This document shows, in pieces, positions 11,610-29,386 of a stretch of DNA of 64,000 nucleotides. The stretch covers positions 62,001 to 126,000 of the forward strand of contig JAOAIK010000030.1 of assembly GCA_026414745.1 (NCBI GenBank), given 5' to 3'. This DNA comes from Roseococcus sp. Lineage in GTDB: Bacteria > Pseudomonadota > Alphaproteobacteria > Acetobacterales > Acetobacteraceae. Position numbers and translations under genes: made by a program. Under the pieces are notes generated by a model that did no database searches, had not been told where the DNA came from, and was given only the letters and a program-made list of their open reading frames with translations. How positions within the stretch are numbered: position 1 is the first letter of the stretch; each line of letters starts with the position of its first letter.

Positions 11610-12494
11610 TCAGGCCCTCCCGAACAGGCCGGCCGGCCGCGTGAGCAGCACGATGGCCATGACGACGAAGATCACGGTGGAGGAGGCCTCCGGCCAGAAC
11701 ACCTTGGTCAGCCCTTCGATGACGCCGAGCGTGAAGCCCGTGACGACCGAGCCGAGGATGGAGCCCATGCCGCCGATGACGACGACGGCGAAGACGATGA
11801 TGATCAGGTTCGCCCCCATCTGCGGGTTGACGGAATAGATCGGCGCGGCCAGCACGCCGGCGAAGGCGGCCAGCGCCACGCCCGCGCCGTAGGTCAGCGT
11901 CATCATGCGCGGCACGTTGATGCCGAAGGCCTGCACCAGCGCCGGGTTCTCGGTCGCCGCGCGCAGGTAGGAACCGATCTTGGTCTTCTCGATCACCAGC
12001 CAGGTGGCGAGGCAGGCGACGATCGCCACGATCACCACCCAGCCGCGGTAGATCGGCATGAACATGAAGCCGAGATCCCAGGAGCCCTGCAGCTCGGCCG
12101 GAATGCGGTAAGGCATGCCCGAGCTGCCGAACTCGTTGCGGAACACCCCCTCGATGACGAGGCCGACGCCGAAGGTCAGCAGCAGGCCATAGAGGTGGTC
12201 GAGTTTGTAGAGGCGGCTGATCATCGTCTTCTCGATGATCACGCCCGTGAGGCCCACGACGAGCGGCGCGACCAGCAGCGCCCACCAGTAGCCGAGGCCC
12301 GCCCAGTTCAGCAGCATCCAGGCGACGAAGGCGCCCATCATGAACTGCGCGCCGTGGGTGAAGTTGATCACGTTCAGCATGCCGAAGATCACGGCGAGCC
12401 CAAGCGAGAGAAGGGCGTAGAAGGCGCCGTTGATCAGTCCGAGCAGGAGCTGTCCGAAGAGCAGCGGTGCCGGGATTCCGAAGATCTCATCCAT
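11610..12494 (-). CDS. livH: Branched-chain amino acid type ABC transporter permease LivH (transporter 1)
   Basis: Second permease of the same importer. The 294-residue product has eight or so membrane helices and the LivH signatures GLINGAFYALLSLGLAVIFG at the start, VINFTHGAQFMMGAF, RAATENPALVQAFGIN (coupling loop, about residues 195-210) and GGMGSILGSVVTGF. It lies between the last of three solute-binding protein genes and livM. A strong hairpin (12511-12539) in the 57-base gap upstream may separate its expression level from that of the binding proteins. Confidence 0.92.
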   Translation of the reverse strand: MDEIFGIPAPLLFGQLLLGLINGAFYALLSLGLAVIFGMLNVINFTHGAQFMMGAFVAWMLLNWAGLGYWWALLVAPLVVGLTGVIIEKTMISRLYKLDHLYGLLLTFGVGLVIEGVFRNEFGSSGMPYRIPAELQGSWDLGFMFMPIYRGWVVIVAIVACLATWLVIEKTKIGSYLRAATENPALVQAFGINVPRMMTLTYGAGVALAAFAGVLAAPIYSVNPQMGANLIIIVFAVVVIGGMGSILGSVVTGFTLGVIEGLTKVFWPEASSTVIFVVMAIVLLTRPAGLFGRA

Positions 12495-15172: not shown

Positions 15173-16414
15173 TCAGCTGCGCACCATCGGGCAGGCGCCC
15201 TCGGAGAGCGGCCGGAAGGCTTCCTCGGCGCTCACCGTCTGCAGCACTTTGTAGTAGTCGAAGCGTCCGCGGCTCTCCTCGGGGCGCTTCACCTCGCACA
15301 GATAGGCCGGATGCATCTTGCGCCCGTCCTCGCGGATGGTGCCCTCGCCGAAGGCGTCGTCGCTGGTCGGCATGCGCTTCATGCGCGCCACCACGTCGCG
15401 GCCGCTGGCCTTGGCCGCCGCCACGCCCATGTCGGCGACCGCCTTGAGGTAGTGCAGCGTGGCCGAGTAGTCACCCGCATGGCTCATCGCCACCGGCATG
15501 TCGGCGCCCGAGAGCTGCAGCACGCGCTGCGCCACCCGCCGCGTGCGGTCGTTGAGGTCCCAGTAGTAGGTGTTGGCGCAGACGAGGCCCTGCGCCGTCT
15601 GCAGGCCGAGCGCGTGCACGTCGGTGATGAACAGCAGCAGCGAGGCGACGCGCACGCCGCGCCGCGTCACGCCGAACTCGCCGATCTGCTTGATCGAGTT
15701 GATCGTGTCCGCGCCCGCGTTGGCAAGGCCGATCACCTGCGCGCGGCTGGCCTGGGCCTGCACGATGAAGCTCGAGAAGTCGGTGGTGCCGGGGAAGGGG
15801 TGGCGCACCTGGCCGAGCACCCGTCCCCCCGCTTGGCGCACGAAGTTGGCCGTGTCGCGCTCCAGCGCATGACCGAAGGCGTAGTCGGCCGTGATGAAGA
15901 ACCAGGACTGACCGCCGGCGCGCACGGTGGCGAGTCCGCTCACCTTCGCCAGCATGTAGGTGTCGTAGACCCAGTGGATCGTGTTCGCGTTGCAGGCGCG
16001 GCCCGTCAGGTCCGAGGTGGCGGTGGAGGTCGCGATCGCCACCTTGTTCCGCTCGCGCGCCAGTTCCGAGACCGCCAGCGCCACCGAGGAGGCGGCGAGG
16101 TTCAGCACCATGTCCACATTGTCGCGGTCGAACCACTGCCGGGCGATGTTCACGCCCACGTCGGGGCGGTTCTGGTGGTCGGCCTGCACCATCTCGACGT
16201 TGAAGCCCCGGTTGCCGAACTCCTGGATGGCGAGGCGCGTGGCGGCGATGGAGTTGGGGCCGTTGAGGTCGCGGAAGGGGCCGGAGAAATCGGTCAGCAG
16301 CCCGATGCGGATGGTGTTGGCGGCCTGCGCCCGCGCCGGGCGATAGGGCAGCGCGCCGGCCAGCGGCGCGGCCGCGACCGCGCCAAGAAGCCCGCGGCGG
16401 TGGATCTCGCTCAT
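15173..16414 (-). CDS. Liv-type ABC transporter solute-binding protein, tandem copy 3
   Basis: A 413-residue member of the tandem trio and the first of them to be transcribed. Signal region EIHRRGLLGAVAAAP, cleavage near ARAQA, then NTIRIGLLTDFSGPFRDLNG and MVQADHQNRPDVG. It keeps the shared FFITADYAFGHALERD and SDDAFGEGTIREDGRK blocks. Its first lobe differs from copy 2 (LNLAASSVALAVSE in place of VDVPTSSVALAVNT), which may mean a different ligand. The ATG at 16414 is chosen because it begins the signal peptide. It follows livF after 70 bases. Confidence 0.9.
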   Translation of the reverse strand: MSEIHRRGLLGAVAAAPLAGALPYRPARAQAANTIRIGLLTDFSGPFRDLNGPNSIAATRLAIQEFGNRGFNVEMVQADHQNRPDVGVNIARQWFDRDNVDMVLNLAASSVALAVSELARERNKVAIATSTATSDLTGRACNANTIHWVYDTYMLAKVSGLATVRAGGQSWFFITADYAFGHALERDTANFVRQAGGRVLGQVRHPFPGTTDFSSFIVQAQASRAQVIGLANAGADTINSIKQIGEFGVTRRGVRVASLLLFITDVHALGLQTAQGLVCANTYYWDLNDRTRRVAQRVLQLSGADMPVAMSHAGDYSATLHYLKAVADMGVAAAKASGRDVVARMKRMPTSDDAFGEGTIREDGRKMHPAYLCEVKRPEESRGRFDYYKVLQTVSAEEAFRPLSEGACPMVRS

Positions 16415-16479: not shown

Positions 16480-16484
16480 CGGCG

Positions 16485-17231
16485 TCACACGCCGAGATAC
16501 TCGTGCAGGCGGTCCATCGCGGAGGCCATCTCCTCGTTGCGCACCGAATCCACAACGCGGCCGTGTTCCATCACGTAATGGCGGTCGGCGACCGTCTGAG
16601 CGAAGCGGAAGTTCTGCTCCACCAGCAGAACGGTGAAGCCGCGCTGCTTGAGTTCGCGGATGGTGCGGCCGATCTGCTGCACGATCACGGGCGCGAGGCC
16701 TTCCGAGGGCTCGTCCAGCAGCAGAAGCTTCGCCCCCGTGCGCAGGATGCGCCCGATGGCGAGCATCTGCTGCTCGCCGCCGGACAGCTTGGTCCCCTGG
16801 CTGCGCGTGCGCTCCTTGAGGTTCGGGAACATCTTGTAGATCTCGTCCACGGGAAGGCCCCCGGGCCGCACCTCGGGCGGCAGCATCAGGTTCTCGTAGA
16901 CGGTGAGGGAGGCGAAGATCCCGCGCTCCTCCGGGCAGTAGGCGATGCCCGCGCGCGCGATCTCGTCCGGCCGCGCGCCGATCAGCTCCCGCCCCGCGTA
17001 GTGGACCGAGCCCGACCGCCGCCCCACCAGCCCCATGATCGCGCGCAGCGTCGAGGTCTTGCCCGCCCCGTTGCGGCCGAGCAGCGTGACCACCTCGCCC
17101 TCGCGGATCTCGATGTCGACCCCGTGCAGGACATGGCTCTCGCCGTACCAGGCCTCGAGCCCCTTCACGCGCAGCAGCGGGGCGCCGCCGTCGGTCGCGG
17201 CGAGCGGGAGTTCGGCAAGCTGGTCAGCCAT
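16485..17231 (-). CDS. livF: Liv-type ABC transporter ATP-binding protein LivF (transporter 1)
   Basis: Cytoplasmic ATPase of the importer. The 248-residue product has Walker A (LLGRNGAGKTST, about residue 50), Q-loop, the signature LSGGEQQMLAIGR and Walker B (LLLLDEPSEGLAP), followed by the switch region LLVEQNF with Gln in place of the usual His, as is normal for LivF. About 18 extra residues precede the usual start of the domain. Its start overlaps the end of livG by 8 bases, so the two ATPases are probably translated together and form the heterodimer. Confidence 0.93.
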   Translation of the reverse strand: MADQLAELPLAATDGGAPLLRVKGLEAWYGESHVLHGVDIEIREGEVVTLLGRNGAGKTSTLRAIMGLVGRRSGSVHYAGRELIGARPDEIARAGIAYCPEERGIFASLTVYENLMLPPEVRPGGLPVDEIYKMFPNLKERTRSQGTKLSGGEQQMLAIGRILRTGAKLLLLDEPSEGLAPVIVQQIGRTIRELKQRGFTVLLVEQNFRFAQTVADRHYVMEHGRVVDSVRNEEMASAMDRLHEYLGV

Positions 17232-18009
17232 GGGAGGCGCCCTCCGGAACGCCGACGGAGGCGGGGTCCGTGCCGAGATAGGCCGCCTGCACCTCGGGGT
17301 TGCGGCTCACGCTCGCGTAGTCGCCCTCGGCCAGCACCTGGCCGCGCGTGAGCACCGTGATCACGTCGCTCAGCCCCTCGACCACCTTGAGGTTGTGCTC
17401 CACGAGCAGGACCGTCCGGCCCTTCGAGACGCGCTTGATCAGCGCCACGATGCGGTCCACGTCCTCGTGCGTCATCCCGGCCGTGGGCTCGTCGAGCAGC
17501 ATCATCTGCGGGTCCATCGCCAGGGTGGTGGCGATCTCCAGCGCGCGCTTGCGACCGTAGGGAAGCTGCCCGGCCTGCAGCGTCGCGTAGTCCGTCAGGC
17601 CGACATCCTCGAGCAGCTCCTCCGCGCGGCGGTTGTAGCGGTCGAGCACCGTCTCGGAGCGCCAGAAGTCGAAGCTGCCGCCCCGTTCGCGCTGCAGCGC
17701 CACCCGCACGTTCTCGAGCACCGTCAGATGCGGGAAGACCGCCGAGATCTGGAAGGAACGGATGAGGCCGAGCCGCGCCACCTCGGCGGGCTTCATGCTG
17801 GTGATGTCGCGCCCGTCATAGACGATGCGCCCGCGCGTCGGGATCAGGAACTTGGTGAGCAGGTTGAAGCAGGTCGTCTTGCCAGCCCCGTTGGGGCCGA
17901 TCAGCGCGTGGATACTGTTGCGCCTGACGCTGAGGTTGACGCCCTGCACCGCGACGAAGCCGCGGAACTCCTTCGTCAGATCCTCGGTCTGAAGGATGAT
18001 GTCGCTCAC
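17224..18009 (-). CDS. livG: Liv-type ABC transporter ATP-binding protein LivG (transporter 1)
   Basis: Partner ATPase of LivF. The 261-residue product has Walker A (LIGPNGAGKTTCF), the LivG-type variant signature LPYGRKRALEIA in place of LSGGQ, Walker B (MMLLDEPTAGM) and the switch histidine in LLVEHNL. The start codon is GTG at 18009. It is the first transporter gene, 120 bases after the xdhB stop on the same strand, with two hairpins in between. The transporter may therefore belong to the heterocycle operon or have its own promoter in that gap. Confidence 0.92.
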   Translation of the reverse strand: MSDIILQTEDLTKEFRGFVAVQGVNLSVRRNSIHALIGPNGAGKTTCFNLLTKFLIPTRGRIVYDGRDITSMKPAEVARLGLIRSFQISAVFPHLTVLENVRVALQRERGGSFDFWRSETVLDRYNRRAEELLEDVGLTDYATLQAGQLPYGRKRALEIATTLAMDPQMMLLDEPTAGMTHEDVDRIVALIKRVSKGRTVLLVEHNLKVVEGLSDVITVLTRGQVLAEGDYASVSRNPEVQAAYLGTDPASVGVPEGASHG

Positions 18010-18054: not shown

Positions 18055-18112
18055 CCCACCCTGTCCCGGCGCTCACGCGGCGCCTGTTGCCGCTTGTATG
18101 GCTGGGCATTCC

Positions 18113-18128
18113 GGCGCTGGCAAGCGCC
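18113..18128 (-). terminator. Possible weak terminator or processing hairpin directly after xdhB
   Basis: GGCGCT (18113-18118) pairs with AGCGCC (18123-18128) around a 4-base loop immediately beyond the xdhB stop. On the transcribed (minus) strand no U-run follows, so termination would be inefficient at best. Confidence 0.25.
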
Positions 18129-18129
18129 T

Positions 18130-20421
18130 TTACGCGCCGCGCGCGGCTGCCCTGATTTTGAGCAGGATCCTCTCGGGCGTGGCGGGCAGGTCGAGGCTCG
18201 CCAGCCCCGTCGCGTCGCGCAGCGCGTTCACCACCGCCGTGGCCAGCAGCAGCGGGGGCTCGCCCACCGCCTTGGAGCGGAAGATGGTGTTCGCCCGCGC
18301 CGGCGCCCCCTCGAGCAGCCGCACCTTCAGCACCGGCGGCGCATCGCGCGAGCCCGGGATCTTGTAGGTGGAGGGGCCGAGGGTGCGCTGCCGGCCCGCC
18401 TCGTCCCACCAGAGTTCCTCGGTGGTGAGCCAGCCCATGCCCTGCACGAAGGCGCCCTCGATCTGGCCGAGGTCGATCGCCGGGTTCAGGCTGCGCCCGC
18501 AATCCTGGACGATGTGCGCCGAGAGGCAGCGGTGTTCGCCCGTCAGCGTGTCCAGCAGCACCTCGGCCACCGCCGCGCCGTAGGTGAAGTAGAAGAAGGG
18601 CGCGCCCTTCATCGCCGCCGCGTCCCAGTGGATGTCGGGCGTGCGGTAGAAGCCGGTGGCGGAGAGGCTCACCCGCTCGCGCCAGCACAGCTTCGCGAGC
18701 TCGGCGAAGGAGAGGCGCTCGTTCGCTCCCGGCCGGGCGGGGAAGATGGCGCCGTCCTCGAACACCACCTCCTCGGGCGCGCAGCCGAAGCGGCGCGCCG
18801 CCACCTCCGTCATGCGCGCCTTGATGGCGCTGGCCGCGGCATGCGCCGCCCAGCCGTTGAGGTCGCTGCCGGTGCTGGCGGCGGTGGCGCTGGTGTTGGG
18901 CACCTCGGCCGTGCTGGTGGCGGTGATGCCCACCTGCTCGACCGGCACCGAGAACACCTCGGCCACCACCTGCGCCACCTTGATGAACAGGCCCTGGCCC
19001 ATCTCCGTGCCGCCATGGGCGAGGCGGATGGAGCCGTCGGTGTAGACATGCACCAGCGCGCCCGCCTGGTTCAGATGCACGATGCCGAAGCTGATGCCGA
19101 AGGCGCAGACGAAATGCCCGAGGCCGCGGCGCAGCGTCGGATGGGCGGCGTTGAAGGCGGCGATCTCGGCGCGCTTCGCCTCCCAGCCCGCATCGCGCTT
19201 GGCCTCGGCCATCACGCGGCGCGTCAGCGCGGGCTCGAGCGCCTGGCCATAAGGCGTGCGATCGGCGAGGTTGAGCGCGCGCAGCTCCTCCACGTCGCGG
19301 CCCAGATGCGCGGCGATGCGGTGCAGCACATCCTCCATCAGCAGCGCGCCCTGCGGGCCGCCGAACCCGCGGAAGGCGGTGTTGCTGACGTGATTGGTCT
19401 TGACCGCGCAGGCGGTGATCGTCACGTCGGGCACGGCGTAGCAGTTCAGCGCGTGGGTCAGCGCGCGGAACACCACGCCGCCCGACATGTCGAGGCTGTG
19501 CCCGCCATCGGCGGCGAGCAGCGCCTCGAGCGCGAGCAGCCGGCCCTCGGCGTCGAATCCCGCCTCCCAGCGGTAGAGGAAGGGGTGGCGCTTGCCGGTC
19601 GCGGCCATGTCGGCGCGGCGGGGCAGGCGCAGCTTCACCGGCCGGCGGGTCAGCCGCGCCCCCAGCGCCGCCGCCGCCGCCACCCAGCTCGCATTGCTCT
19701 CCTTGCCGCCGAAGCCGCCGCCCATGCGCCGGCAGGTGACGGTGATGCGCTGATAGGGCACGCCCAGCACCCGCGCCACGATGTGCTGCACCTCGCTCGG
19801 GTGCTGGGTGGAGGAGTGGACCAGCATCTCCTCCTCCTCGCCGGGGATGGCGAGGGCGATCTGCCCCTCGAGATAGAAATGCTCCTGCCCGCCGGCGCGG
19901 AACGTGCCGCCCAGGCGGTGCGGCGCGCGCGCCAGGGCGGCCGCGGCGTCGCCCTCGCGGATGGTCTGGGGCGGGACGAGCCAGGCCTGCCGCGCGAGGC
20001 CCTCCTCGATGCTCAGCACCGGCGGCAGGGGCGCGATGGCGGGGCGGATGGCGGCGGCCGCGCGCAGCGCCGCATCGCGCGTCTCGGCCACCACCAGGGC
20101 CAGCGGCTGGCCGTGGTGCTCCACCACCCCCTCGGCCAGCATGGGCTCGCCCGTGCCGATGGGGGCGATGTCGTTCTCGCCCGGGATGTCGGCGGGGGTG
20201 AGGATGCGCACCACGCCGGGCATGGCGCGGGCGGCCGCGAGGTCGAGCCGCTGGATCCGCCCATGCGCCACGGGCGAGAGGGCGAGGGCGGCGTGCAGGG
20301 TGCCGGCGGGCTCGGGGAGGTCGTCGAGGAAGCGCGCCTCGCCGCGGGCGTGGCGCAGCGCGCTGTCATGGCGCATCGCCTGGCCGGCGCGGCGCAGCGG
20401 CTGGGGCGCGCCGTCCGTCAT
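18130..20421 (-). CDS. Xanthine dehydrogenase-family molybdenum-binding subunit (XdhB-like)
   Basis: Large catalytic subunit of a molybdenum hydroxylase that inserts water-derived oxygen next to a ring nitrogen. The 763-residue product has the N-terminal a/b-hammerhead domain (to about 120), CRRMGGGFGGKESN (molybdopterin contact), NTAFRGFGGPQGAL, GGTEMGQGLFIKVAQV and the catalytic glutamate region SKAVGEPPLLLA near the C-terminus. By sequence it resembles bacterial xanthine dehydrogenase XdhB. No XdhC chaperone or other purine-degradation gene is nearby, while enamidase and hydroxynicotinate reductase genes are, so hydroxylation of a pyridine compound is at least as likely. It overlaps xdhA by four bases (ATGA). 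Confidence 0.85.
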   Translation of the reverse strand: MTDGAPQPLRRAGQAMRHDSALRHARGEARFLDDLPEPAGTLHAALALSPVAHGRIQRLDLAAARAMPGVVRILTPADIPGENDIAPIGTGEPMLAEGVVEHHGQPLALVVAETRDAALRAAAAIRPAIAPLPPVLSIEEGLARQAWLVPPQTIREGDAAAALARAPHRLGGTFRAGGQEHFYLEGQIALAIPGEEEEMLVHSSTQHPSEVQHIVARVLGVPYQRITVTCRRMGGGFGGKESNASWVAAAAALGARLTRRPVKLRLPRRADMAATGKRHPFLYRWEAGFDAEGRLLALEALLAADGGHSLDMSGGVVFRALTHALNCYAVPDVTITACAVKTNHVSNTAFRGFGGPQGALLMEDVLHRIAAHLGRDVEELRALNLADRTPYGQALEPALTRRVMAEAKRDAGWEAKRAEIAAFNAAHPTLRRGLGHFVCAFGISFGIVHLNQAGALVHVYTDGSIRLAHGGTEMGQGLFIKVAQVVAEVFSVPVEQVGITATSTAEVPNTSATAASTGSDLNGWAAHAAASAIKARMTEVAARRFGCAPEEVVFEDGAIFPARPGANERLSFAELAKLCWRERVSLSATGFYRTPDIHWDAAAMKGAPFFYFTYGAAVAEVLLDTLTGEHRCLSAHIVQDCGRSLNPAIDLGQIEGAFVQGMGWLTTEELWWDEAGRQRTLGPSTYKIPGSRDAPPVLKVRLLEGAPARANTIFRSKAVGEPPLLLATAVVNALRDATGLASLDLPATPERILLKIRAAARGA

Positions 20422-21770
20422 GCGAAGACCTCGGCGGGCAGGCCGGCCTGGCGCAGCGCGAGGCGCCGCAGCAGGCCGCGCGCCCCCTCGAGCCGGTAGG
20501 CGGCGCTGCCGCGCCAGTCGCTGACCGGCGCGAAATCCAGCGCCTCGCCCGCCGCGCGCAGCGCCGCGTCGTCGAGCGGGCGGCCGATCAGCGCCGCCTC
20601 GGCGGGCGCGCAGCGCCGGGCCGTCGCGTCCATGCCCCCGAAGGCGAGGCGCGCGGCGCGCACCACGCCGCCCTCGATGACGAGGCAGGCGGCGAGGGAG
20701 ACGGCGCTGATGTCCTGGTCGTGCCGGCGCGAGAGCTTCTCCGCCGCCAGGAAGGCGCCGGCGGGCGGGCGCGGCAGGTGCACGGCGAGGATCAGCTCGT
20801 CCGGCGCCAGCGCGGTGCGACGGTAGCCGGTGAGGAAGGCCTCCACCGGCAGGCGGCGCAGCCCGCGCGGGCTCGCCAGTTCCACCTCCGCGCCGAGGGC
20901 GATCAGCACGGGCAGGGAATCGCCGATGGGCGAGGCGGTGCCGAGATTGCCCGCCACCGTGCCGAGCCCGCGGATCTGCCGCGAGCCGAGCCGCGCGAGA
21001 TAGGGCGCGAGCGGCGAAAGCGCCGGCTCGGCGCGGCAGAGCCCGAGCAGCGCCCGATAGGGGGCGGCCGCGCCGATGCGCCAGCCCCCGGCGCCGGCGG
21101 TGATGCCCTGCATCTCGGCCACGTTGAGCAGGCAGAGCACCTGCTCGGGCCGCTCGCGGTGCTCGGAGAGGCGCAGGCCGAGATCGGTGCCGCCCATCAG
21201 CACCCAGGCCGCGGGATGGGCGGCGCGGATCGCCAGCGCCTCCTCGAGCGTGGCGGGCAGGTGGAAGCCGCCGAAGCGCGCCGGGGCGCGGGGCGGCAGG
21301 GCGGGCGGCGGCGCGCCGTCATCCTCCATGCGCGCCATGGCGTCGAGGATGGGGCGATAGCCGGTGCAGCGGCAGAGATTGCCCGCCAGCGCCTCGTGCG
21401 GGTCGCCGCCCTCGCGGGTGTGCGCCCAGGCGCTCATCACGATGCCCGGGGTGCAGAAGCCGCATTGCGTGCCGTCGCTTTCGGCGAGGAGGCGCGGCAG
21501 GGGGTGCTCGGGCCCCAGCCCCTCGACGCTGCGCAGCGCGCGGCCATGCATCTGGCCCAGCGCGCAGAGGCAGGCGTTGATCGGCACGCGCGCGCCGTCC
21601 GCCTCCTCCAGCACCACGGTGCAGGCGCCGCAATCGCCCTCCGCGCAGCCCTCCTTGGTGCCGGTGAGCCCTTCGGCGCGCAGCCAGTCGAGCAGCGTCA
21701 TCACCGGGGAGACCTCACGCGGCAGGCGGCGCGGCGCGCCGTTCAGCACGAACTCGATCTGTTCCTGCAT
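20418..21770 (-). CDS. Xanthine dehydrogenase-family small subunit, [2Fe-2S] plus FAD (XdhA-like)
   Basis: Electron-transfer subunit for the following molybdenum subunit. The 450-residue product carries a plant-type [2Fe-2S] domain (C42, C47, C50 and C67 or C69), the second helical [2Fe-2S] domain (C103, C106, C133, C135 in TQCGFC and NLCRCTGY) and a FAD-binding domain (about 165-440, with LMGGTDLGLRLSEH and GTVAGNLGTASPIGDSLP). This is the fused XdhA arrangement. It lies 40 bases after the AA_synth gene and overlaps xdhB, in the same operon as the enamidase. Confidence 0.88.
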   Translation of the reverse strand: MQEQIEFVLNGAPRRLPREVSPVMTLLDWLRAEGLTGTKEGCAEGDCGACTVVLEEADGARVPINACLCALGQMHGRALRSVEGLGPEHPLPRLLAESDGTQCGFCTPGIVMSAWAHTREGGDPHEALAGNLCRCTGYRPILDAMARMEDDGAPPPALPPRAPARFGGFHLPATLEEALAIRAAHPAAWVLMGGTDLGLRLSEHRERPEQVLCLLNVAEMQGITAGAGGWRIGAAAPYRALLGLCRAEPALSPLAPYLARLGSRQIRGLGTVAGNLGTASPIGDSLPVLIALGAEVELASPRGLRRLPVEAFLTGYRRTALAPDELILAVHLPRPPAGAFLAAEKLSRRHDQDISAVSLAACLVIEGGVVRAARLAFGGMDATARRCAPAEAALIGRPLDDAALRAAGEALDFAPVSDWRGSAAYRLEGARGLLRRLALRQAGLPAEVFA

Positions 21771-21810
21771 GCTGTCCGCCCCGGCCCTCTCGCCGCAGCT
21801 TACGGCGATG

Positions 21811-22389
21811 TCATCTGAGCCCGTCCTCGCCGATGATGCCCTCGACCGTCAAGCCGCCGATGCGCGGCAGCGGCCGCCCGCCATCGGTCAGCGCGAGGCA
21901 GAGCAGGATTTCGTCGCGCGCCGGCGCATCGGGCAGGCGGAACTCGATGGCGTCGAAATGGCTGCGGACATAGGCCGCGTCCTTGTGGCCGAGGGGGATG
22001 TCGATCGCCGTGCCGGGGCCCCCGCGCTTCTTGGCCGAGGGAATCAGCGCGGGCCCCTTGCCGAGCGCGGCGCGCACCGGCGCACCCATCTTCGGGTGCA
22101 GCAGGGCGGCGGCGTGCTCGAGCTCGCCCGCCTCGCCCACAATGGCGGCCTTGCCGAAGCTGTGCACCTTGGCGCCCTCGATGCCGAGGGCCGCGATGGC
22201 GCGCGCGGCGAGCTCGGCGCCCAGCGTCGCGCCCGCGTCGATCAACGGCGAGAGATCCTCGACATAGCGGCCGGCGAAGGGGTTCTCGATCACGCAGGCG
22301 GCGACGGCGCGGCGGATGGGGGGCGCGACCGCGCGCCCCGCCTCGCGCACGGTCTCGTGGACCAGCACGGCCCAGGCGCGCGGGGTCAT
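21811..22389 (-). CDS. AA_synth (DUF1185)-family protein, function unproven
   Basis: A 192-residue protein that I recognise as the family annotated as 'amino acid synthesis' protein (PF06684), whose biochemical role is not established. Visible conserved blocks are ENPFAGRYVEDLSPLID, GAKVHSFGKAAIVG, ELEHAAALLHPKMGAPVR, and a C-terminal LALTDGGRPLPRIGG. No signal peptide or membrane segment. Its start overlaps the enamidase stop in an ATGA, showing tight coupling. A place in the ring-opening part of the pathway, perhaps acting on the enamidase product, is inferred from position alone. Confidence 0.8.
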   Translation of the reverse strand: MTPRAWAVLVHETVREAGRAVAPPIRRAVAACVIENPFAGRYVEDLSPLIDAGATLGAELAARAIAALGIEGAKVHSFGKAAIVGEAGELEHAAALLHPKMGAPVRAALGKGPALIPSAKKRGGPGTAIDIPLGHKDAAYVRSHFDAIEFRLPDAPARDEILLCLALTDGGRPLPRIGGLTVEGIIGEDGLR

Positions 22390-23546
22390 GCCAGCAGCTC
22401 CGGGATGCGCGCGGCGGGGGGCGTGTTGCGGCTGCGGCCGCAGACCACCTTGCCGTCCACCAACACCATGCCGATGCCGGGCAGCTCGCCCTCCGCCAGG
22501 GCCTCGGCCGCATCGCGCCCCGCCCCGCCGATGGGGGCGTCGAGCAGCACCAGGTCCGCCGCGCGCCCGGGGGCGATCACGCCCGCCTCGATGCCGCGCC
22601 AGCGCGCCGTGTTCCCCCCCGCCGCCGCGATGGCGATGCCGGGATCGAGCCCGCCCAGCGCGCAGAGGAGGGAGATGGTCCGCAGCACGCCGAGCGGCTG
22701 CACGCCCGAGCCCGCGGGGCTGTCCGTGCCGATCACCAGCCGGTCGAGCCGGCCCATCTCGCGCAGCACGCCCAGCGCATGCAGCGCGTTGCGCGGGTTG
22801 CCGTTGTGCACCACCTCGATGGCGCGGCGCGTGCCCTCGATCACCTTCGTCAGCTCCGCGCGCGGCAGCGAGGTGGGGCCGCCATTGATGTGCGCCACGA
22901 TGTCGGCGTCGGCGGCGATGACCACCGGCGCGGCCATGAGGTTGGAGCCCGCGATGGAGGGCCCGCCGCAATGGATCATGGCGTTGAGCCCGGCGGCGCG
23001 CACCCAGCCCATCACCTCGGCCACCTCGGCCTCGTCCTTCACGGTGCCGAGGCCGAACTCGCCCACGAAGCGCACGCCGGCGCCGGCCATCTCGGCATAG
23101 TCGGCGGCGGTGAGGCCGCGCTCGGGCACCGGCGCGCCGGCCAGCACCCGCGCGCCGAGCGGCCGGAAGGCGGAGAAGGCGCGCTGCGCGGCGATGGCGA
23201 GCGCCTTCACCCCCACGGGGTCGCGCGGCCTGCCGGGCAGATGCACCTCGCCCGCGCTGATCAGGGTGGTGGTGCCGCCCTGCACCATCCCCTCGATCCA
23301 GCCGAGCTGGTTCTGCCGCGGCGTCCAGTCGCCGAAGGCCGGATGGACGTGGTTGTCGATCAGCCCGGGCATGACGGCGCAGCCATGCGCCTCGATCACC
23401 GTCGCCCCGGCCGTGTCGAGATCGGCCGCGCGGCCGATGGCGGCGATGCGCCCCTCCTCGATGAGGATCGCATCCGCATCGAGCAGCGGGGCCGCGATGT
23501 CGCCCGAGAAGACGAGGCCGAGCCCGCGCAGCACTGTCCTGGTCAT
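22386..23546 (-). CDS. ena: Enamidase-like amidohydrolase (6-oxo-1,4,5,6-tetrahydronicotinate ring opening)
   Basis: A 386-residue metal-dependent amidohydrolase. From memory of the Eubacterium barkeri enamidase of nicotinate fermentation, this sequence shares its distinctive blocks in the right order: SGDI near residue 14, HLPGRPRDP, FVGEFGLGTVKDEAE, VAHINGGPTS, GTDSPAGSGVQPLGVLR and the C-terminal SRNTPPAAR. The metal site HVH is at DNHVHP. Enamidase hydrolyses the cyclic enamide formed by 6-hydroxynicotinate reductase to 2-formylglutarate. The ATG at 23546 is used; an upstream in-frame ATG at 23618 would add 24 residues and run into the divergent promoter region. It is the first gene of the minus-strand operon. 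Confidence 0.85.
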   Translation of the reverse strand: MTRTVLRGLGLVFSGDIAAPLLDADAILIEEGRIAAIGRAADLDTAGATVIEAHGCAVMPGLIDNHVHPAFGDWTPRQNQLGWIEGMVQGGTTTLISAGEVHLPGRPRDPVGVKALAIAAQRAFSAFRPLGARVLAGAPVPERGLTAADYAEMAGAGVRFVGEFGLGTVKDEAEVAEVMGWVRAAGLNAMIHCGGPSIAGSNLMAAPVVIAADADIVAHINGGPTSLPRAELTKVIEGTRRAIEVVHNGNPRNALHALGVLREMGRLDRLVIGTDSPAGSGVQPLGVLRTISLLCALGGLDPGIAIAAAGGNTARWRGIEAGVIAPGRAADLVLLDAPIGGAGRDAAEALAEGELPGIGMVLVDGKVVCGRSRNTPPAARIPELLA

Positions 23547-23606
23547 GCAAGCCTCCCCCACCCGGGGCCAGCGTAGTTTCCGATTGAGCGGCGCGCCAAG
23601 GGGCCG

Positions 23607-23619
23607 CATGCTTTGCATG
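23607..23619. promoter_or_regulatory. Candidate operator in the divergent enamidase / FAD-subunit promoter region
   Basis: CATGC-TTT-GCATG is a perfect 5+3+5 palindrome near the middle of the 95-base gap between the two divergent operons, a sensible place for one regulator to control both. On the minus strand, TTGGCG and TACGCT spaced by 18 bases upstream of the enamidase start could be its promoter. No regulator gene is adjacent, so the binding protein is unknown. Confidence 0.3.
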
Positions 23620-23641
23620 ACAAGATCCGGAGTGGGCGAGG

Positions 23642-24394
23642 TTGGGGAACTACTGGCGGCCCGCGACGCTGGAGGCGGCGCTGCGGATTCTCGGGGAGGA
23701 GTCGCCGCGGCCGCTGGCCGGCGGCACGGATGTCTATCCGGCGCTGGCCCAGGCCGCCGCCTGGGGCGCGGCGGAGGCGCCCGCGCTGCTCGACCTGACG
23801 GGCATCGCGGCGCTGCGCGGCGTGACGCGGAGGGGCGGGGTATGGCGCATCGGCGCCCTCACCCCCTGGGCGGCGCTGCGCGACGCCCCGCCCGCGCCGG
23901 GATTCCGCGCGCTGGCCGAGGCGGCGGCGCAGGTCGGCGGGCGGCAGATCCAGGCGCGCGGCACCATCGGCGGCAATCTCTGCAACGCCTCGCCGGCGGC
24001 CGATGGGGTGCCGCCGCTGCTCATCCTCGATGCGTCGGTGGAGCTCGCCTCGCGGCGCGGGCAGCGCGTGCTGCCGCTGCGCGCCTTCCTCCTCGGCAAC
24101 CGCCGCACGGCGCGCGCGCCGGATGAGATCCTCACGGCCATCCTCGTCCCCGTGGAGGCGGCCGAGGCGCCCTCGGTCTTCCTCAAGCTCGGCGCGCGGC
24201 GGCATCTCGTCATCTCCATCGCCATGGTGGCGGCGAGCGCCAACGGGCGTGTGGCGGTCGGCGCCTGCTCCGAGGTCGCGCGGCTGTGGGAGGAGGGGGT
24301 GGCGCCGATCGGCGATGTGCGCGCCAGCGCCGACTACCGCCGCGCCGCGGCCGAGGAGCTGGTGGCGCGCGCCCGCGCGCGGCTCGCGGCATGA
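23642..24394 (+). CDS. FAD-binding subunit of a molybdenum hydroxylase (CoxM/NdhF-like)
   Basis: A 250-residue flavoprotein subunit. The two FAD motifs are visible: LAGGTDVYPALAQA (about residue 26) and GGRQIQARGTIGGNLCNASPAADG (about 98-121). The C-terminal domain is short, as in NdhF- and CoxM-type subunits. It passes electrons from the iron-sulfur centres of the next gene's product to an acceptor. The only sensible start is a TTG at 23642 preceded by GGAG; no in-frame ATG fits. The stop overlaps the start of the following gene by four bases (ATGA). This is the first gene of the four-gene plus-strand operon. Confidence 0.85.
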   Translation: MGNYWRPATLEAALRILGEESPRPLAGGTDVYPALAQAAAWGAAEAPALLDLTGIAALRGVTRRGGVWRIGALTPWAALRDAPPAPGFRALAEAAAQVGGRQIQARGTIGGNLCNASPAADGVPPLLILDASVELASRRGQRVLPLRAFLLGNRRTARAPDEILTAILVPVEAAEAPSVFLKLGARRHLVISIAMVAASANGRVAVGACSEVARLWEEGVAPIGDVRASADYRRAAAEELVARARARLAA

Positions 24395-27018
24395 TCGCGC
24401 TCACCGTCAACGGCGTGCCGCGCGCGCTCGACCTGCCGGGGCAGACGCGGCTCTCGGCGGCGCTGCGCGACAGGCTCGGCCTCACCGGCACCAAGATCGG
24501 CTGCGACGCGGGCGATTGCGGCGCCTGCACCGTGCTGCTGGACGGCGCGCAGGTCTGCGCCTGCTTGACGCCGCTCGGCCAATGCGCGGGCGCCTCGGTG
24601 GAGACGGTGGAGGGCATCGCCGCCACCCCCGAGGGCCGCGCGCTGATGGCGCGCTTCCACGCGGCCGGGGCGGCGCAGTGCGGCATCTGCACGCCGGGCA
24701 TGCTCATGGCGGCGACCGAGCTGCTGCGCGCGAACCCCGCCCCCTCGGAGCGGGAGGCCGAGGCGGCGCTGGGCGGCGTGCTGTGCCGCTGCACCGGCTA
24801 TCGGCGCATCCTGGAGGCCGTCTGCGGCCTGGGGCCCGCGGCCGAGGCGGGGGCGGTGGGCGCGCGGCTGCCGCGGCTCGACGGGGCGGGGAAACTCGAC
24901 GGCACGGCGCGCTTCGGCGCCGATCTCGCGCCGGCCGATGCGCTGTGGCTGAAGGCCGTGCGCTCGCCGCACGCGCATGCGCGCTTCGCGCTGCCCGACA
25001 TCCCGGCCTTCCTGGCCGCGAACCCCGGGATCCGCGCCGTGCTGACGGCGCGCGAGGTGCCGGGGCGCAACGGCTACGGCATCTACCCGCACATCAAGGA
25101 CCAGCCCGTCTTCGCCGAGACTGTGGCGTTGCATCGCGGCGATGCTGTCGCGGCCCTGGTCGGCACGCGCGAGGCCGTCGAGCGGGCGGAACTTCCCGTC
25201 GCGTGGGCGCCGCTGCCCGCCCTCGAGGATCCCGAGGCCGCGCTCGCCGCCCCGCCGCTGCACGCCGCCTTCCCGGGCAATGTGCTCGCCGAGGGGGTGG
25301 TCCGGTGCGGCGACCCTGACGCGGCCTTCGCCGCCGCCGCGCATGTGGCGGAGGGCCGTTTCCGCACCAGCTTCGTCGAGCACGCCTACATCGAGCCCGA
25401 GGCCGGCTTCGCGCGCCGGGTCGGCGAACGCATCGAGATCTGGTGCTCCACCCAGGCCCCGGCGATGGACCGCGAGGAGGTGGCCGGCGTGCTCGGCGTC
25501 CCGCTGGAGGCGGTGCGCATCATCCCGAGCCAGTGCGGCGGCGGCTTCGGCGGCAAGCTCGATGCCGGCATGCAGCCCATGCTGGCGGTGGCCGCCTGGG
25601 TGCTCGACCATCCGGTGCGCGCCATCTGGTCGCGGCCCGAGAGCATGGCGGCCAGCACCAAGCGCCACCCCGCGCGCATCACCGCGCGCGCGGCCTGCGA
25701 CGCGCAGGGGCGGCTGGTCGCGCTGGAGTTCGACGGGCTCTACGACACGGGCGCCTATGCCTCCTGGGGGCCGACGGTGGCGGGCCGCGTGCCCGTCCAC
25801 GCGACGGGCCCCTATCGCGTGCCGCATGTGCGGGCGCGGGCGCGGGCGGTGTTCACCCATAAGCCGCCCGCGGGGGCCTTCCGCGGCTTCGGCGTGCCGC
25901 AGGCCGCGGTGGCGCAGGAGGCGCTCTATGACCGGCTGGCGGATGCCTGCGGGATGGACCGGCTGGAGTTCCGCCTCCTGAACGCGCTGATGCCGGGCGA
26001 CGTGACGGCGACGGGCCAGCGCCTCGACCATTCCGTGGGCCAGCGCGCCTGCCTCGAGGCGCTGCGCCCGCGCTGGAGGGAGTTCCGCGCCGAGGCGGCG
26101 CGGCGCAACGCCGCCGGCGGGGTGCTGCGCCATGGCGTGGGCGTGGCCGCCATGTGGTACGGCATCGGCAACACCGGCATGTCCAACCCCTCCGAGATGC
26201 GGCTGATCCTCGCCCCCGGCGGCCGTCTCGGGTTCCGCAACGGGGCGGTGGACATCGGCCAGGGGAGTGCGACCGTGCTCGCCCAGATCGTGGCCGAGGC
26301 GCTGGGGCTGCCGGTCGCGGCGATCACGCAGATCCTCGGCGACACCGACCTCACGCCCGATGCGGGCAAGACCAGCGCCTCGCGCCAGACCTTCGTCTCC
26401 GGCCGCGCCGCGCTGGCCGCCGCCCTCGACCTGCGCGCCAAGGTGAATGGCGCGCTCGGCTGGGACGGCGCGCGCGTCACCGTGAACGGCGAACCCTATG
26501 CGGGCCCTGCGCTGGAGGGCCGTGGCCGCTTCGACCCGCCGACCGTCCCGCTCGACGCGGAGGGCCAGGGCGCGCCCTACGCCACCTACGGCTTCGGCGC
26601 GCAGCTCTGCGCGCTGGCGGTGGATGTGCGCCTCGGCACCGTGACGCTCGAGCGCTTCGTCGCCGCGCATGACGTGGGGCGGGCGATCAACCCCACCCTG
26701 GTGGAGGGCCAGATCCATGGCGGCATCGCCCAGGGCATCGGGCTCGCGCTGATGGAGGAGTATATCCCCGGCCGCACCGAGAACCTGCACGACTACCTGA
26801 TCCCGAGCGTGGGCGACGTGCCGCCCATCGAGGTGATCCTCATCGAGGAGCGCGAACCCCTCGGCCCCTATGGCGCGAAGGGCGTGGGCGAGCCCGCCCT
26901 GGTGGCGACGGCGCCCGCCATCCTCTCGGCGATCCGCGACGCGACGGGGGCGGAGGTCACGCATCTGCCCGCGCTCCCGCATCGCCTGCGCGCGGCGCTG
27001 GAGGCGGCCGGATGGTAG
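24391..27018 (+). CDS. Fused [2Fe-2S] / molybdenum hydroxylase catalytic subunit (nicotinate dehydrogenase-like)
   Basis: An 875-residue protein that joins two normally separate subunits. Residues 1-155 are the iron-sulfur subunit with both clusters (C38, C43, C46, C56 or C58; then C97, C100, C132, C134 in AQCGIC and VLCRCTGY). The rest is the molybdenum-binding subunit with QCGGGFGGKLDAG, AGAFRGFGVPQAA, the DIGQGSATVLAQ block and the catalytic glutamate in GAKGVGEPALVA. With the FAD subunit just upstream it makes a complete hydroxylase from two polypeptides. The operon also encodes 6-hydroxynicotinate reductase, so nicotinate to 6-hydroxynicotinate is the best guess for the reaction; substrate is inferred from neighbours. 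Confidence 0.87.
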   Translation: MIALTVNGVPRALDLPGQTRLSAALRDRLGLTGTKIGCDAGDCGACTVLLDGAQVCACLTPLGQCAGASVETVEGIAATPEGRALMARFHAAGAAQCGICTPGMLMAATELLRANPAPSEREAEAALGGVLCRCTGYRRILEAVCGLGPAAEAGAVGARLPRLDGAGKLDGTARFGADLAPADALWLKAVRSPHAHARFALPDIPAFLAANPGIRAVLTAREVPGRNGYGIYPHIKDQPVFAETVALHRGDAVAALVGTREAVERAELPVAWAPLPALEDPEAALAAPPLHAAFPGNVLAEGVVRCGDPDAAFAAAAHVAEGRFRTSFVEHAYIEPEAGFARRVGERIEIWCSTQAPAMDREEVAGVLGVPLEAVRIIPSQCGGGFGGKLDAGMQPMLAVAAWVLDHPVRAIWSRPESMAASTKRHPARITARAACDAQGRLVALEFDGLYDTGAYASWGPTVAGRVPVHATGPYRVPHVRARARAVFTHKPPAGAFRGFGVPQAAVAQEALYDRLADACGMDRLEFRLLNALMPGDVTATGQRLDHSVGQRACLEALRPRWREFRAEAARRNAAGGVLRHGVGVAAMWYGIGNTGMSNPSEMRLILAPGGRLGFRNGAVDIGQGSATVLAQIVAEALGLPVAAITQILGDTDLTPDAGKTSASRQTFVSGRAALAAALDLRAKVNGALGWDGARVTVNGEPYAGPALEGRGRFDPPTVPLDAEGQGAPYATYGFGAQLCALAVDVRLGTVTLERFVAAHDVGRAINPTLVEGQIHGGIAQGIGLALMEEYIPGRTENLHDYLIPSVGDVPPIEVILIEEREPLGPYGAKGVGEPALVATAPAILSAIRDATGAEVTHLPALPHRLRAALEAAGW

Positions 27019-28499
27019 ACCGCACCGAGCAGTTCGGCGCGCGCGAGGGCGATGAGGGCATCGTGCGCTGCGACGCCTGCCCGGTGCTCTGCCGCATCCG
27101 GCCCGGCCGCGCCGGCGCCTGCCACCGCTACGCCAACGAGGGCGGGCGGCTGGTGCGCACCGACCCGCTCGTGCTGCTCACCCGCGCGGTGGAGGCGCAG
27201 GAGCCGGTGGTGCCCTTCCTCGACGCCGCGGAGGAATGGTCCGGCGAACTCGCTCCCCGGGAAGAAGTCTTCGTCACCGCGATCGGCGCCGGCACCACCT
27301 ATCCGGACTACAAGCCTGCCCCCTTCATCGTGAGCCAGCGCCATGAGGGGGTGGACACCGTCACCGTCGTCACCGAGGGCATTTTCAGCTACTGCGGCCT
27401 CAAGGCGAAGATCGACACCGACCGCCATCTCGGCCCCGAGGCCGCGCCGGTGCGCCATGAGGGCGAGCAGATCGGCCATGTCACCACCGCCGAATACGGC
27501 TCGCAGATGCTCTCGCTTGGCGGCGTGCGCCACCTCACCGGCGGCTCGAAGCGCGAGGGGCAGGTGACCTGCGCCGCCCTGCTCGCCCTCTGCCGCAAGG
27601 AGGCGATCGAGGTGGAGATCGAGGGCGGCGCGCGCGTCGTCCTCCAGGCCGGGGCCGCGCCTATCGTGAACGGCGTGCGGGAGAGCCGCATGCGCGTGGG
27701 CTGCGGCAGCGCCGCCATCGGCATCTTCGCCCAGCAATGGCACGGCCATGTGGACGAGGTGGTGGTGCTGGACGACCACATCACCGGCGTGCTGACCGAG
27801 CACCAGGCGGGCAAGTGCCTCGGCATGCGCCCCTCGGGGCTGCGGCTGCGCGGCCGGCGCTCCACACCCGGGCGCTATTTCCAGGTGGCGCAGCCCGGCA
27901 GCGGCTGGGGCGGGACGGACGTGACCGACCCGCTCTCCGTCATCGAGGGCTTCGATGCGAAGCACGCCTGGCCCGGCATGCGCGTGCTGATGACCAGCAC
28001 CACCGGCGAGGACGCGCTGTGGTTCGAACTCGACGAGGCGCTGCGCCCCGTGCCCCGTCCCATGCCCGAGGCGGTGGCGCGCACCGTGGCCCGCATCGGC
28101 GAGAACTGCGAGCCGGCGATGACCTCCATCCTGTTCATGGCCGGGGCGGGCGGGTCGCTGCGCGCGGGCGTGACGGAGAACCCGATCCTGCTCACCCGCA
28201 GCGTGCAGCGGGGCGAGGTGCGCGTGACCATGGGCGGCGCGCCCTGCTACCTCTGGCCCGGCGGGGGAATCACGCTCATGGCGGATGTGCTGCGCATCCC
28301 CGACAAGGCCTTCGGCCATGTGCCCACGCCCGCGCTGGTCGCGCCCATCGAGTTCACCCTGCGCGCCGAGCTCTATGCCGCGCTCGGCGGGCATGTGGAG
28401 CACGCCCTCCCGCTCGCGGAGCTGCTCGCCCGCCATGCAGCGGAGAGCGAGAGCGCGCCCTGGCCCGCCGCCAACCCCTGGCCCGAGGCCCCGCGATGA
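27012..28499 (+). CDS. hnr: 6-hydroxynicotinate reductase-like iron-sulfur protein
   Basis: A 495-residue protein that I recognise as the family named after 6-hydroxynicotinate reductase of Eubacterium barkeri. That enzyme uses reduced ferredoxin to turn 6-hydroxynicotinate into 6-oxo-1,4,5,6-tetrahydronicotinate. The N-terminus has a cysteine cluster C20-x2-C23-x3-C27-x9-C37 suited to a [4Fe-4S] centre. Further conserved-looking cysteines occur in FSYCGLK, VGCGSA, GENCEPA and GAPCYLW. It starts 7 bases before the end of the hydroxylase gene. The enamidase that takes the product is encoded by the divergent operon. No dedicated ferredoxin gene was seen here, so the electron donor is unknown. 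Confidence 0.85.
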   Translation: MVDRTEQFGAREGDEGIVRCDACPVLCRIRPGRAGACHRYANEGGRLVRTDPLVLLTRAVEAQEPVVPFLDAAEEWSGELAPREEVFVTAIGAGTTYPDYKPAPFIVSQRHEGVDTVTVVTEGIFSYCGLKAKIDTDRHLGPEAAPVRHEGEQIGHVTTAEYGSQMLSLGGVRHLTGGSKREGQVTCAALLALCRKEAIEVEIEGGARVVLQAGAAPIVNGVRESRMRVGCGSAAIGIFAQQWHGHVDEVVVLDDHITGVLTEHQAGKCLGMRPSGLRLRGRRSTPGRYFQVAQPGSGWGGTDVTDPLSVIEGFDAKHAWPGMRVLMTSTTGEDALWFELDEALRPVPRPMPEAVARTVARIGENCEPAMTSILFMAGAGGSLRAGVTENPILLTRSVQRGEVRVTMGGAPCYLWPGGGITLMADVLRIPDKAFGHVPTPALVAPIEFTLRAELYAALGGHVEHALPLAELLARHAAESESAPWPAANPWPEAPR

Positions 28500-29386
28500 T
28501 GGACGCCGCCGCCTGGCCGCCGCCGCGCCGCCAGCTCCTGCCCGATGGGCGGCTGCTGCTGGAGGACGGGCCCATCCGCCTCGTCATCGGCATCGAGGGC
28601 GCGCGCGCCGCGGTGCTGGAGGCGCGCGAGGCGGCGGCGCGCGCGCTGGAGGGGGTGCTGCCCGCCCTGGCCGAGGAGGTGGCGCTGCTGCGCCAGCCGC
28701 TGATGGGCCGCCCGCCCGCGCCGCGCCACCCCGTCGCGCGGCGCATGGTGGAGGCCGCCTGGCCCTACCGCGCGCATTTCGTCACGCCCATGGTGGCGGT
28801 GGCGGGGGCGGTGGCCGAGCATGTGCTGCTCGGCCTCACCGCCGTGCCCGGCCTGTCCATGGCCTATGTCAACAATGGCGGCGACATCGCCGTGCACCTC
28901 TCGGGCCGGGCGACGCTGCGCGTGGGGCTGGTCGAGCGGCCGGAGGCCGGGGCGCCGGACGGGCTCGCGGTGATCCGCGGCGGCGATGCGGTGCGCGGCA
29001 TCGCCACCTCCGGCTGGCGCGGGCGCAGCTTCTCGCGCGGCATCGCCGACGCGGTGACGGTGCTCGCCGCCCGCGCCCCGGAGGCGGATGCGGCCGCCAC
29101 CCTGATCGCCAATGCGGTGGACGCCGACCACCCGCTGATCCGCCGCGCCCCGGCGCAGAGCCTCGACCCCGACAGCGACCTGCGCGACCTGCCGGTGACC
29201 GTGGATGTGGGCGCGCTGCCGCCCGAGATCGTGCACCTCGCCCTCGACCGTGGCGAGGCCTTCGCCGAGGGGCTGCTGGCGCGCGGGCTGGTGCTCGGCG
29301 TGTGCCTGCGGCTGCAGGGGCAGGTGCGGGTGCTGGGCGCCTCGGGGGCCCTGGTGGCCATCGGCCGCGAGGAAAGGCTCGGCTGA
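28496..29386 (+). CDS. UPF0280 (ApbE-fold-like) family protein
   Basis: A 296-residue soluble protein of the UPF0280 family, distantly related to ApbE flavin transferases. The typical block is MAYVNNGGDIAVHL (about residue 120), followed by GIATSGWRGRSFSRGIADAV and TLIANAVDADHPLIRR. ATG at 28496 overlaps the hnr stop by four bases, so it is made together with the reductase. The neighbourhood suggests it matures or supplies a cofactor to the reductase, for example a bound flavin; this is inference and no UPF0280 activity is established to my knowledge. Confidence 0.8.
   Translation: MMDAAAWPPPRRQLLPDGRLLLEDGPIRLVIGIEGARAAVLEAREAAARALEGVLPALAEEVALLRQPLMGRPPAPRHPVARRMVEAAWPYRAHFVTPMVAVAGAVAEHVLLGLTAVPGLSMAYVNNGGDIAVHLSGRATLRVGLVERPEAGAPDGLAVIRGGDAVRGIATSGWRGRSFSRGIADAVTVLAARAPEADAAATLIANAVDADHPLIRRAPAQSLDPDSDLRDLPVTVDVGALPPEIVHLALDRGEAFAEGLLARGLVLGVCLRLQGQVRVLGASGALVAIGREERLG

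Follow-up and report, generated by a model that had tools for sequence, protein, structure and literature searches.

Whether a presumably aerobic alphaproteobacterium would degrade nicotinate by a reductive route, and which proteins would assist the enzymes of that route, is the question raised by a gene cluster of Roseococcus sp. (Acetobacteraceae). The cluster lies in a stretch of 64,000 nucleotides, hereafter the window (GenBank assembly GCA_026414745.1, contig JAOAIK010000030.1; G000:C45:62001-126000 in our numbering, where G and L numbers designate genomes and loci), taken from a genome of 3.2 Mb in 63 contigs that is 91.5% complete. The host is considered aerobic from its kinship with Rubritepida and Roseococcus, and Hnr, the 6-hydroxynicotinate reductase-like protein of the window, shares 96% identity with its counterpart in Rubritepida flocculans. 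An earlier, sequence-only reading had described eight genes flanking a 95-base gap as divergent operons for the reductive degradation of nicotinate or a related N-heterocycle. The eight genes are present at 18130-29386, with refined coordinates and with family matches now in place (Table 1). They very probably encode, as judged from their sequences, the first three catabolic steps, leading from nicotinate through 6-hydroxynicotinate and tetrahydro-oxonicotinate to 2-formylglutarate.

Predicted route from nicotinate to 2-formylglutarate

The enamidase, Ena, aligns over residues 1-384 with residues 1-385 of the Eubacterium barkeri enamidase (2vun_A; phmmer E 9.2e-106, the next PDB match being at E 8.7e-7). 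H66, H68, E163, H192, H219 and D275 align with 2vun and are invariant in 14 relatives (alignment A6, made with 14 of 32), and they make up the H-x-H, Glu, His, His, Asp series that we take to be the metal-site residues of amidohydrolases. The claim of an enamidase with close family blocks is borne out by this end-to-end match. As regards the plus-strand hydroxylase, nicotinate dehydrogenase (NDH), a 107-residue fragment of its molybdenum (Mo) chain (26116-26436) retrieves 3hrd_B (NdhM) first, at E 4.2e-24, followed by a match at 7.1e-10. In the alignment MWYGIGNTGMSNP of NDH corresponds to MWYGIGNTGLPNP of E. barkeri NdhM, with a Tyr at residue 13 of the chain (Tyr13M) that is kept in all 46 NDH sequences from Hnr loci and has been modelled as binding the ring nitrogen of nicotinate (PMC5746545). 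These data support the view that NDH keeps the nicotinate pocket of E. barkeri, so that both Ena and NDH have relatives in that organism with the same metal-site and pocket residues. The split L and M Mo subunits of the E. barkeri enzyme are not found, the 2Fe-2S and Mo parts being fused here in one chain, and on account of this fusion we call the enzyme NDH-like rather than the same enzyme type.

Hnr had no NCBIfam match at E 0.001 and no solved relative, and it owes its name to annotated plasmid relatives: 26 of them are 60.6-70.6% identical to it, 17 of which are annotated as 6-hydroxynicotinate reductase. The earlier label of a 6-hydroxynicotinate reductase-like protein is retained on the basis of these relatives. 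For comparison, 42% identity has been reported between the Hnr proteins of SG-6C and E. barkeri (PMC3511419). Among 66 Hnr sequences (59 proteins from 62 loci, five annotated plasmid loci, L069 and the window), Cys231 and Cys366 are found in all, and Cys23, 27, 37, 128 and 187 in 63-65. An AlphaFold model (predicted local distance difference test, pLDDT, 74.2; predicted template modelling score, pTM, 0.62) retrieved no PDB entry with Foldseek at E <= 0.001, and no structural match exceeded Z 4.2, which is not evidence of a new fold. A sub-threshold match to Pfam GCV_T_C in 37 of the 37 sequences of alignment A1 (best E 1.4e-4), together with a T-protein as top row of the structural comparison, hints at a GcvT-like barrel near residues 128-215.

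In the proposed route, an ATP-binding cassette (ABC) importer would take up nicotinate or a relative, and NDH (23642-27018, plus strand) would hydroxylate nicotinate to 6-hydroxynicotinate. Hnr would then carry out a two-electron reduction of the ring to 1,4,5,6-tetrahydro-6-oxonicotinate, probably at the expense of reduced ferredoxin, and Ena would open the ring, releasing ammonia, to give 2-formylglutarate. A ferredoxin-NADP reductase gene is found in four of the five annotated plasmid stretches.

Several observations weigh against this route. The best whole-chain match of NDH is the aldehyde oxidoreductase 1dgj, and its best NCBIfam model is that of selenium-dependent xanthine dehydrogenase, below cut-off. 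Moreover, NDH is missing from some Hnr loci, and four of the genomes with Hnr (G044, G124, G152 and G153) lack an NDH orthologue, their closest match having <=37% identity. The latter observation, the presence in the operon of a second Mo hydroxylase of another type, and a transporter scoring below every specific cut-off would all fit a cluster that degrades some other N-heterocycle, such as a substituted pyridine carboxylate or a pyridone, along similar lines, through hydroxylation, reduction and lactam hydrolysis. We consider this improbable, since the Tyr13M pocket is nearly identical to that of E. barkeri NdhM and Ena is close to the solved E. barkeri enzyme.

Comparison with known clusters

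Reductive degradation of nicotinate is the part of the sequence-only reading that is sustained by the Ena match and the Tyr13M pocket; its use by an aerobe, which that reading had contrasted with the oxidative route of Pseudomonas, is already in print for Azorhizobium caulinodans, with a conserved cluster in Bradyrhizobiaceae (PMC3511419). As reported there in 2012, the cluster, which is assigned to the tetrahydro-oxonicotinate route, is conserved in Azorhizobium, Bradyrhizobium, Rhodopseudomonas and SG-6C (AZC_2804-2790, blr3818-3830, RPB_1671-1658 and SG-6C). Besides the genes for three steps of the pathway it includes a transporter and two conserved proteins of unknown function. Since clusters of the same kind have been published, that of the window belongs to an already known type, in which the recruitment of a xanthine dehydrogenase, described below, represents a local variation. 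In contrast to the Azorhizobium and Bradyrhizobiaceae clusters, the window adds this dehydrogenase and has its genes split into two divergent operons. We infer that the two conserved unknowns of those clusters are UPF0280 and AA_synth.

The fate of 2-formylglutarate may also follow the Azorhizobium pattern, in which glutarate is the reported exit (A. caulinodans; PMC3511419). The sequence-only reading had proposed to look for the downstream genes elsewhere in the genome, and one of them was searched for. The nicotinate fermentation cluster of E. barkeri was reportedly described by Alhapel in 2006, and its lower branch would be expected to include PF04303, which we take to be the PrpF-type methylitaconate isomerase. 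No PF04303 match was found in the window's own genome (91.5% complete), whereas 2 of 14 control genomes have one. This absence speaks for the Azorhizobium glutarate route over the lower branch of E. barkeri (the methyleneglutarate route), which is probably missing.

Conserved neighbourhood of hnr

A mapping of the neighbourhood of 62 Hnr loci (flanks of <=10 kb, many of them cut by contig ends), which the sequence-only reading had suggested, joined UPF0280 to Hnr in 58 loci, NdhSL in 51, NdhF in 42, AA_synth in 39, Ena in 30 and XdhAB of the window type in 6. Two of the four loci without UPF0280 end at or inside hnr (L055 and L059), while the other two (L034 and L040) run on without it. In plasmid loci the order Hnr, UPF0280, AA_synth was found in 6 of 6, four of them with a second AA_synth copy. 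All co-occurrence counts refer to one set of 150 genomes from the family, with Ena counted at E <= 1e-60. Hnr is present in 51 of them. UPF0280 is present in 53 and accompanies Hnr in 48, the two genes lying side by side in 45 and on separate contigs in 3 (Fisher p 1e-29, uncorrected for kinship). AA_synth is found in 57 genomes (48 with Hnr) and Ena in 43 (42 with Hnr).

Nine Hnr loci carry HyuA of the hydantoinase/oxoprolinase type at >=60% identity (L029, L041, L045, L050, L051, L054, L057, L060 and L062), seven of them together with HyuB at the same threshold; matches of 33-35% in L055 were not counted. Ena was seen in none of the nine, so that HyuA/HyuB is likely to provide an alternative ring opener there. 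A Neorhizobium plasmid (L066:1725-5776) has nicA/nicB, annotated as the Pseudomonas-type nicotinate dehydrogenase, within its Hnr stretch, together with HyuA/HyuB and without NDH of the window type; judging from these genes, it combines the entry of the oxidative route with reductive steps.

UPF0280, a candidate helper of Hnr

The UPF0280 protein of the window scores 331.7 bits against the family model NF003322 (cut-off 290). Comparison by hhalign of a UPF0280 profile (alignment A2, 34 sequences) with one of 14 ApbE proteins of the bacterial family (alignment A5; 14 of 16, with L084 and L087 left out) gave 94.3% and E 9.7e-8 over 94 columns, while two unrelated profiles used as controls gave 0.2% and 0.7%. 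PF02424 matches 17 of the 34 UPF0280 members (best E 1.4e-6), the window's own protein not being among them, and the one solved relative of UPF0280 is a hypothetical protein (2o34, E 1e-5). GGD, TSG and AD..AT motifs are common to UPF0280 and ApbE, and UPF0280 is on this evidence a distant ApbE relative. It differs from the flavin transferase in that the ApbE His loop has no counterpart in the profile alignment; neither a residue equivalent to the catalytic His257 of Vibrio cholerae ApbE nor any other invariant His was found among the 34 sequences.

ApbE attaches flavin mononucleotide to the last residue of the motif D-x-x-[S/T]-G-A-[S/T] (PMC12052999), which differs from what is seen in Hnr, where it occurs in 0 of the 66 sequences. 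A related stretch, D-H-I-T-G-V-L-[S/T], is nearly invariant in Hnr and ends at residue 262 with Ser in 40 and Thr in 26 sequences, this residue being one of several mixed Ser/Thr columns and by itself little proof. Another segment, H-L-T-G-G-S-K, was rejected as a flavin site, with Gly in three and Pro in one of the 66 sequences at residue 179, and Val in six and Asn in one at residue 176. ApbE itself was found in 22 of the 150 genomes, 12 of them with Hnr, so that 39 of the 51 Hnr genomes have no ApbE match; there was none in the window's own genome, and 7 of the 14 control genomes have one. Its kinship with ApbE, its co-occurrence with Hnr and the absence of ApbE from most Hnr genomes make UPF0280 a candidate flavin transferase. 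It may well be, although we would stop short of calling it probable, that UPF0280 loads or attaches the flavin of Hnr.

A nearly even chance is given to the alternative that UPF0280, instead of transferring flavin, serves Hnr as a flavin carrier, chaperone or electron-transfer partner, or acts on the substrate. The missing His loop and the lack of the exact ApbE target motif in Hnr, which count against the transferase, would be explained in this way. It would also account for scores, below cut-off, of UPF0280 in two methanogens of the control set of 14 genomes and for genome G141, another point against the transferase, which keeps UPF0280 without Hnr. Against it stand the GGD, TSG and AD..AT motifs that UPF0280 has in common with ApbE, and its almost complete co-occurrence with Hnr where ApbE is mostly absent. 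Moreover, E. barkeri Hnr, which contains Fe-S clusters, is reported in a 2006 abstract to carry a covalent flavin, which speaks for a transferase.

UPF0280 without Hnr was otherwise detected as fragments in G026, G067 and G115 and as a weak match in G140, only G141 having the full gene. In this relative of Rhodovarius (L154:8197-9792), the transporter, AA_synth and UPF0280 remain, and hnr is gone from between them, which can reflect either decay or another role of UPF0280. A search of open-licence literature turned up no paper that connects Hnr or ApbE with UPF0280 or AA_synth.

AA_synth and the possible exit from the pathway

The structural model of AA_synth (pLDDT 87.8) matches two solved DUF1185 proteins with Z 23.7 and 22.6, all other rows being below Z 7. 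Published DUF1185 structures are hexamers with a conserved His/Glu/Arg cluster at the interface (PMC2954203), and E89, E91, H92, H98, H144, R172 and R176, invariant in the 28 sequences of alignment A4, seem to be the residues of that cluster. Seven loci (L046, L047, L056, L064, L065, L066 and L067) have two adjacent AA_synth copies, one similar to that of the window (61-69%) and one distant (39-50%), which perhaps form a hetero-oligomer.

A possible function is suggested by analogy. The catabolism of trigonelline (N-methylnicotinate) reportedly releases CO2 and succinate semialdehyde, and an intermediate resembling 2-formylsuccinate would precede them. The corresponding pair in the window would be 2-formylglutarate and glutarate semialdehyde instead of succinate semialdehyde, which fits the decarboxylation step that the Azorhizobium route is said to include. 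TgnF and HcdD belong to the same protein family as AA_synth; TgnF reportedly enhances the oxidation of succinate semialdehyde during trigonelline breakdown, an effect that the authors of PMC7913881 failed to observe with their own HcdD. We tentatively propose, as one possibility, that the substrate of AA_synth is 2-formylglutarate or the glutarate semialdehyde formed from it by decarboxylation, and that AA_synth thereby supplies the glutarate route described for Azorhizobium. The occurrence of AA_synth in nine genomes without Hnr weighs against this proposal.

It could also be considered that AA_synth is a cyclic-amide hydrolase opening the ring of tetrahydro-oxonicotinate, since barbiturase and cyclic-amide-hydrolase chains are among its structural neighbours (Z 5.5-6.3) and Lys80, Ser118 and Lys121 are invariant in the 28 sequences. 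This is improbable: these Z values, below 8, are tied with those of chorismate mutase, Rid and PurM folds, and AA_synth co-occurs with Ena, and elsewhere with HyuA/HyuB, so that ring opening already has a candidate enzyme.

That both proposals hold in their specific form, with UPF0280 as a second class of flavin transferase, devoid of the ApbE-type His, attaching flavin to Hnr at D-x-x-T-G-V-L-[S/T], and with AA_synth decarboxylating or otherwise processing 2-formylglutarate, appears unlikely. If it were the case, the helper and exit enzymes still lacking for the reductive nicotinate pathway in aerobes would have been identified, and two widespread protein families without a known function would each have a role. 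In view of the co-occurrence, the ApbE ancestry and the absence of ApbE from most Hnr genomes, these roles can be tested directly by co-expression.

A divergent xanthine dehydrogenase in the operon

Both molybdenum hydroxylases announced by the sequence-only reading are present, yet they are not an equivalent pair, the minus-strand enzyme being of a divergent xanthine dehydrogenase (XDH) type found in 6 of the 62 Hnr loci. Its XdhB passes the XDH model TIGR02965 (989.8 bits, cut-off 849.5), while XdhA falls below the cut-off of TIGR02963 (398.5 against 467). In the alignment with 1jro_B, XdhB keeps E232, R310 and E730 of Rhodobacter capsulatus XDH but reads FGISFG at 441-446 where R. capsulatus XDH reads FGISFT, so that the Phe-Thr purine-contact motif is not found. 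The Thr in question, Thr460 of R. capsulatus XDH, contacts hypoxanthine or xanthine, and the same spot is altered in the fungal nicotinate hydroxylase HxnS (PMC5746545), by insertion of an Ala in HxnS and by substitution with Gly here. Among 46 XdhB sequences, 18 read FG, 24 FT and 4 FN. In an XDH tree (without L141 and L142, which duplicate L152 and L153, and without a truncated L040 match, excluded by score), the 18 Gly sequences form one clade (100/100), within which the seven from Hnr loci are again one clade (100/99). On sequence grounds the minus-strand hydroxylase is a member of this divergent XDH clade, and because the seven operon copies group together, the simplest reading is that XdhAB was recruited into the operon once.

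It is possible, but rather unlikely, that the FG-type XdhAB is a second nicotinate 6-hydroxylase, derived from XDH and convergent with HxnS, which replaces NDH in G044 and G124, two genomes counted as the same genus as that of the window. These have XdhAB and no NDH, and such a role would agree with the presence of XdhAB in the operon at six of the 62 loci and in the window, with the common origin of the seven operon copies, and with the replacement of the purine-contact Thr by Gly in 18 of 18 FG-type sequences, at the spot that is altered in HxnS. Against it, the window's XdhB still has E232, R310 and E730, and exactly one match at E 1e-200, either FG or canonical, was found in each of the 42 genomes with XDH, as if the FG type were simply their purine enzyme. 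As Hnr is lacking in 5 of 14 FG-type genomes, and the two XDH types were never found together in one genome, to present XdhAB as a certain nicotinate hydroxylase would be too strong. The distribution in other genomes is mixed, with NDH and no XDH above cut-off in G151, neither enzyme in G152 and G153, and both in the window's genome and in R. flocculans. No XdhC above cut-off was found in the window's genome (67.5 against 161.6 bits), and the scanned neighbours of FG-type XdhAB elsewhere (ten proteins from L145, L146, L147, L149 and L151, not all of those present) showed no common theme. In any case, the FG clade constitutes a natural experiment on a purine enzyme changing at its substrate-contacting Thr.

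Gene layout, transporter and intergenic region

The minus-strand genes continue, after 120 bases, into an ABC transporter operon running from 18009 down to 10620, which the sequence-only reading had not included, and the unit is about 10620-29386, comprising the catabolic genes and the transporter (Table 1).

Table 1. Features of the predicted nicotinate cluster and its transporter operon (positions in the window)
Feature	Position	Strand	Basis or remark
ABC permease B	10620..11606	-	BPD_transp_2; UrtC-like, below cut-off
ABC permease A	11610..12494	-	BPD_transp_2; UrtB-like, below cut-off
ABC substrate-binding protein 3	12552..13769	-	Peripla_BP_6
ABC substrate-binding protein 2 (start not fixed)	13890..15137	-	Peripla_BP_6
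ABC substrate-binding protein 1 (start not fixed)	15173..16414	-	Peripla_BP_6
ABC transporter ATPase 2	16485..17231	-	ABC_tran; UrtE/LivF-like, below cut-off
ABC transporter ATPase 1	17224..18009	-	ABC_tran, BCA_ABC_TP_C; best UrtD/LivG-like matches below cut-off
XdhB-like Mo subunit, 763 residues, FG clade of xanthine dehydrogenases	18130..20421	-	TIGR02965
XdhA-like 2Fe-2S/flavin adenine dinucleotide (FAD) subunit, 450 residues	20418..21770	-	Fer2, Fer2_2, FAD_binding_5, CO_deh_flav_C
AA_synth (DUF1185), 192 residues	21811..22389	-	PF06684 E 1.2e-71; nearest solved relatives 2qtp, 3byq
Ena, enamidase, 386 residues	22386..23546	-	phmmer to E. barkeri 2vun_A
Divergent intergenic gap, 95 bases	23547..23641	.	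GTTTCCGATTGAGCG block at 23576-23590
NDH FAD subunit, 250 residues, TTG start assumed	23642..24394	+	FAD_binding_5, CO_deh_flav_C
NDH fused 2Fe-2S + Mo subunit, 875 residues	24391..27018	+	matches 3hrd_A, 3hrd_B, 3hrd_D
Hnr, 6-hydroxynicotinate reductase-like, 495 residues	27012..28499	+	plasmid relatives; DHITGVL[S/T] ends at residue 262
UPF0280 protein, 296 residues, distant ApbE relative	28496..29386	+	NF003322

The transporter is of the branched-chain/urea-like class, and its ATPase has counterparts of >=75% identity in 21 of the 30 loci that carry AA_synth of the window type (>=60%). A 15-base block of the divergent gap, GTTTCCGATTGAGCG, recurs at the same gap in L002, L004 and L005 (exact) and in L006 (one mismatch); it was not found in the gaps of L003, L012 and L017, and L038 has a two-mismatch match elsewhere. 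A CATGC-TTT-GCATG palindrome in the gap was discarded as an operator, since it occurs once in the window where 0.33 occurrences would be expected, and its sequence differs in L002. No MarR/NicR-like regulator was seen in the window's gap.

Another block, CGTAAGCCTAGAAACGA, separates Ena from a divergently oriented gene in 12 loci (L010, L011, L018, L019, L020, L022, L032, L033, L035, L036, L037 and L058; <=2 mismatches allowed). The divergent gene matches MarR/NicR proteins in all 12, and the block is a likely operator. The window has, in addition, a second branched-chain-type ABC transporter operon at 35082-39679, which is unlinked to the nicotinate-type cluster.

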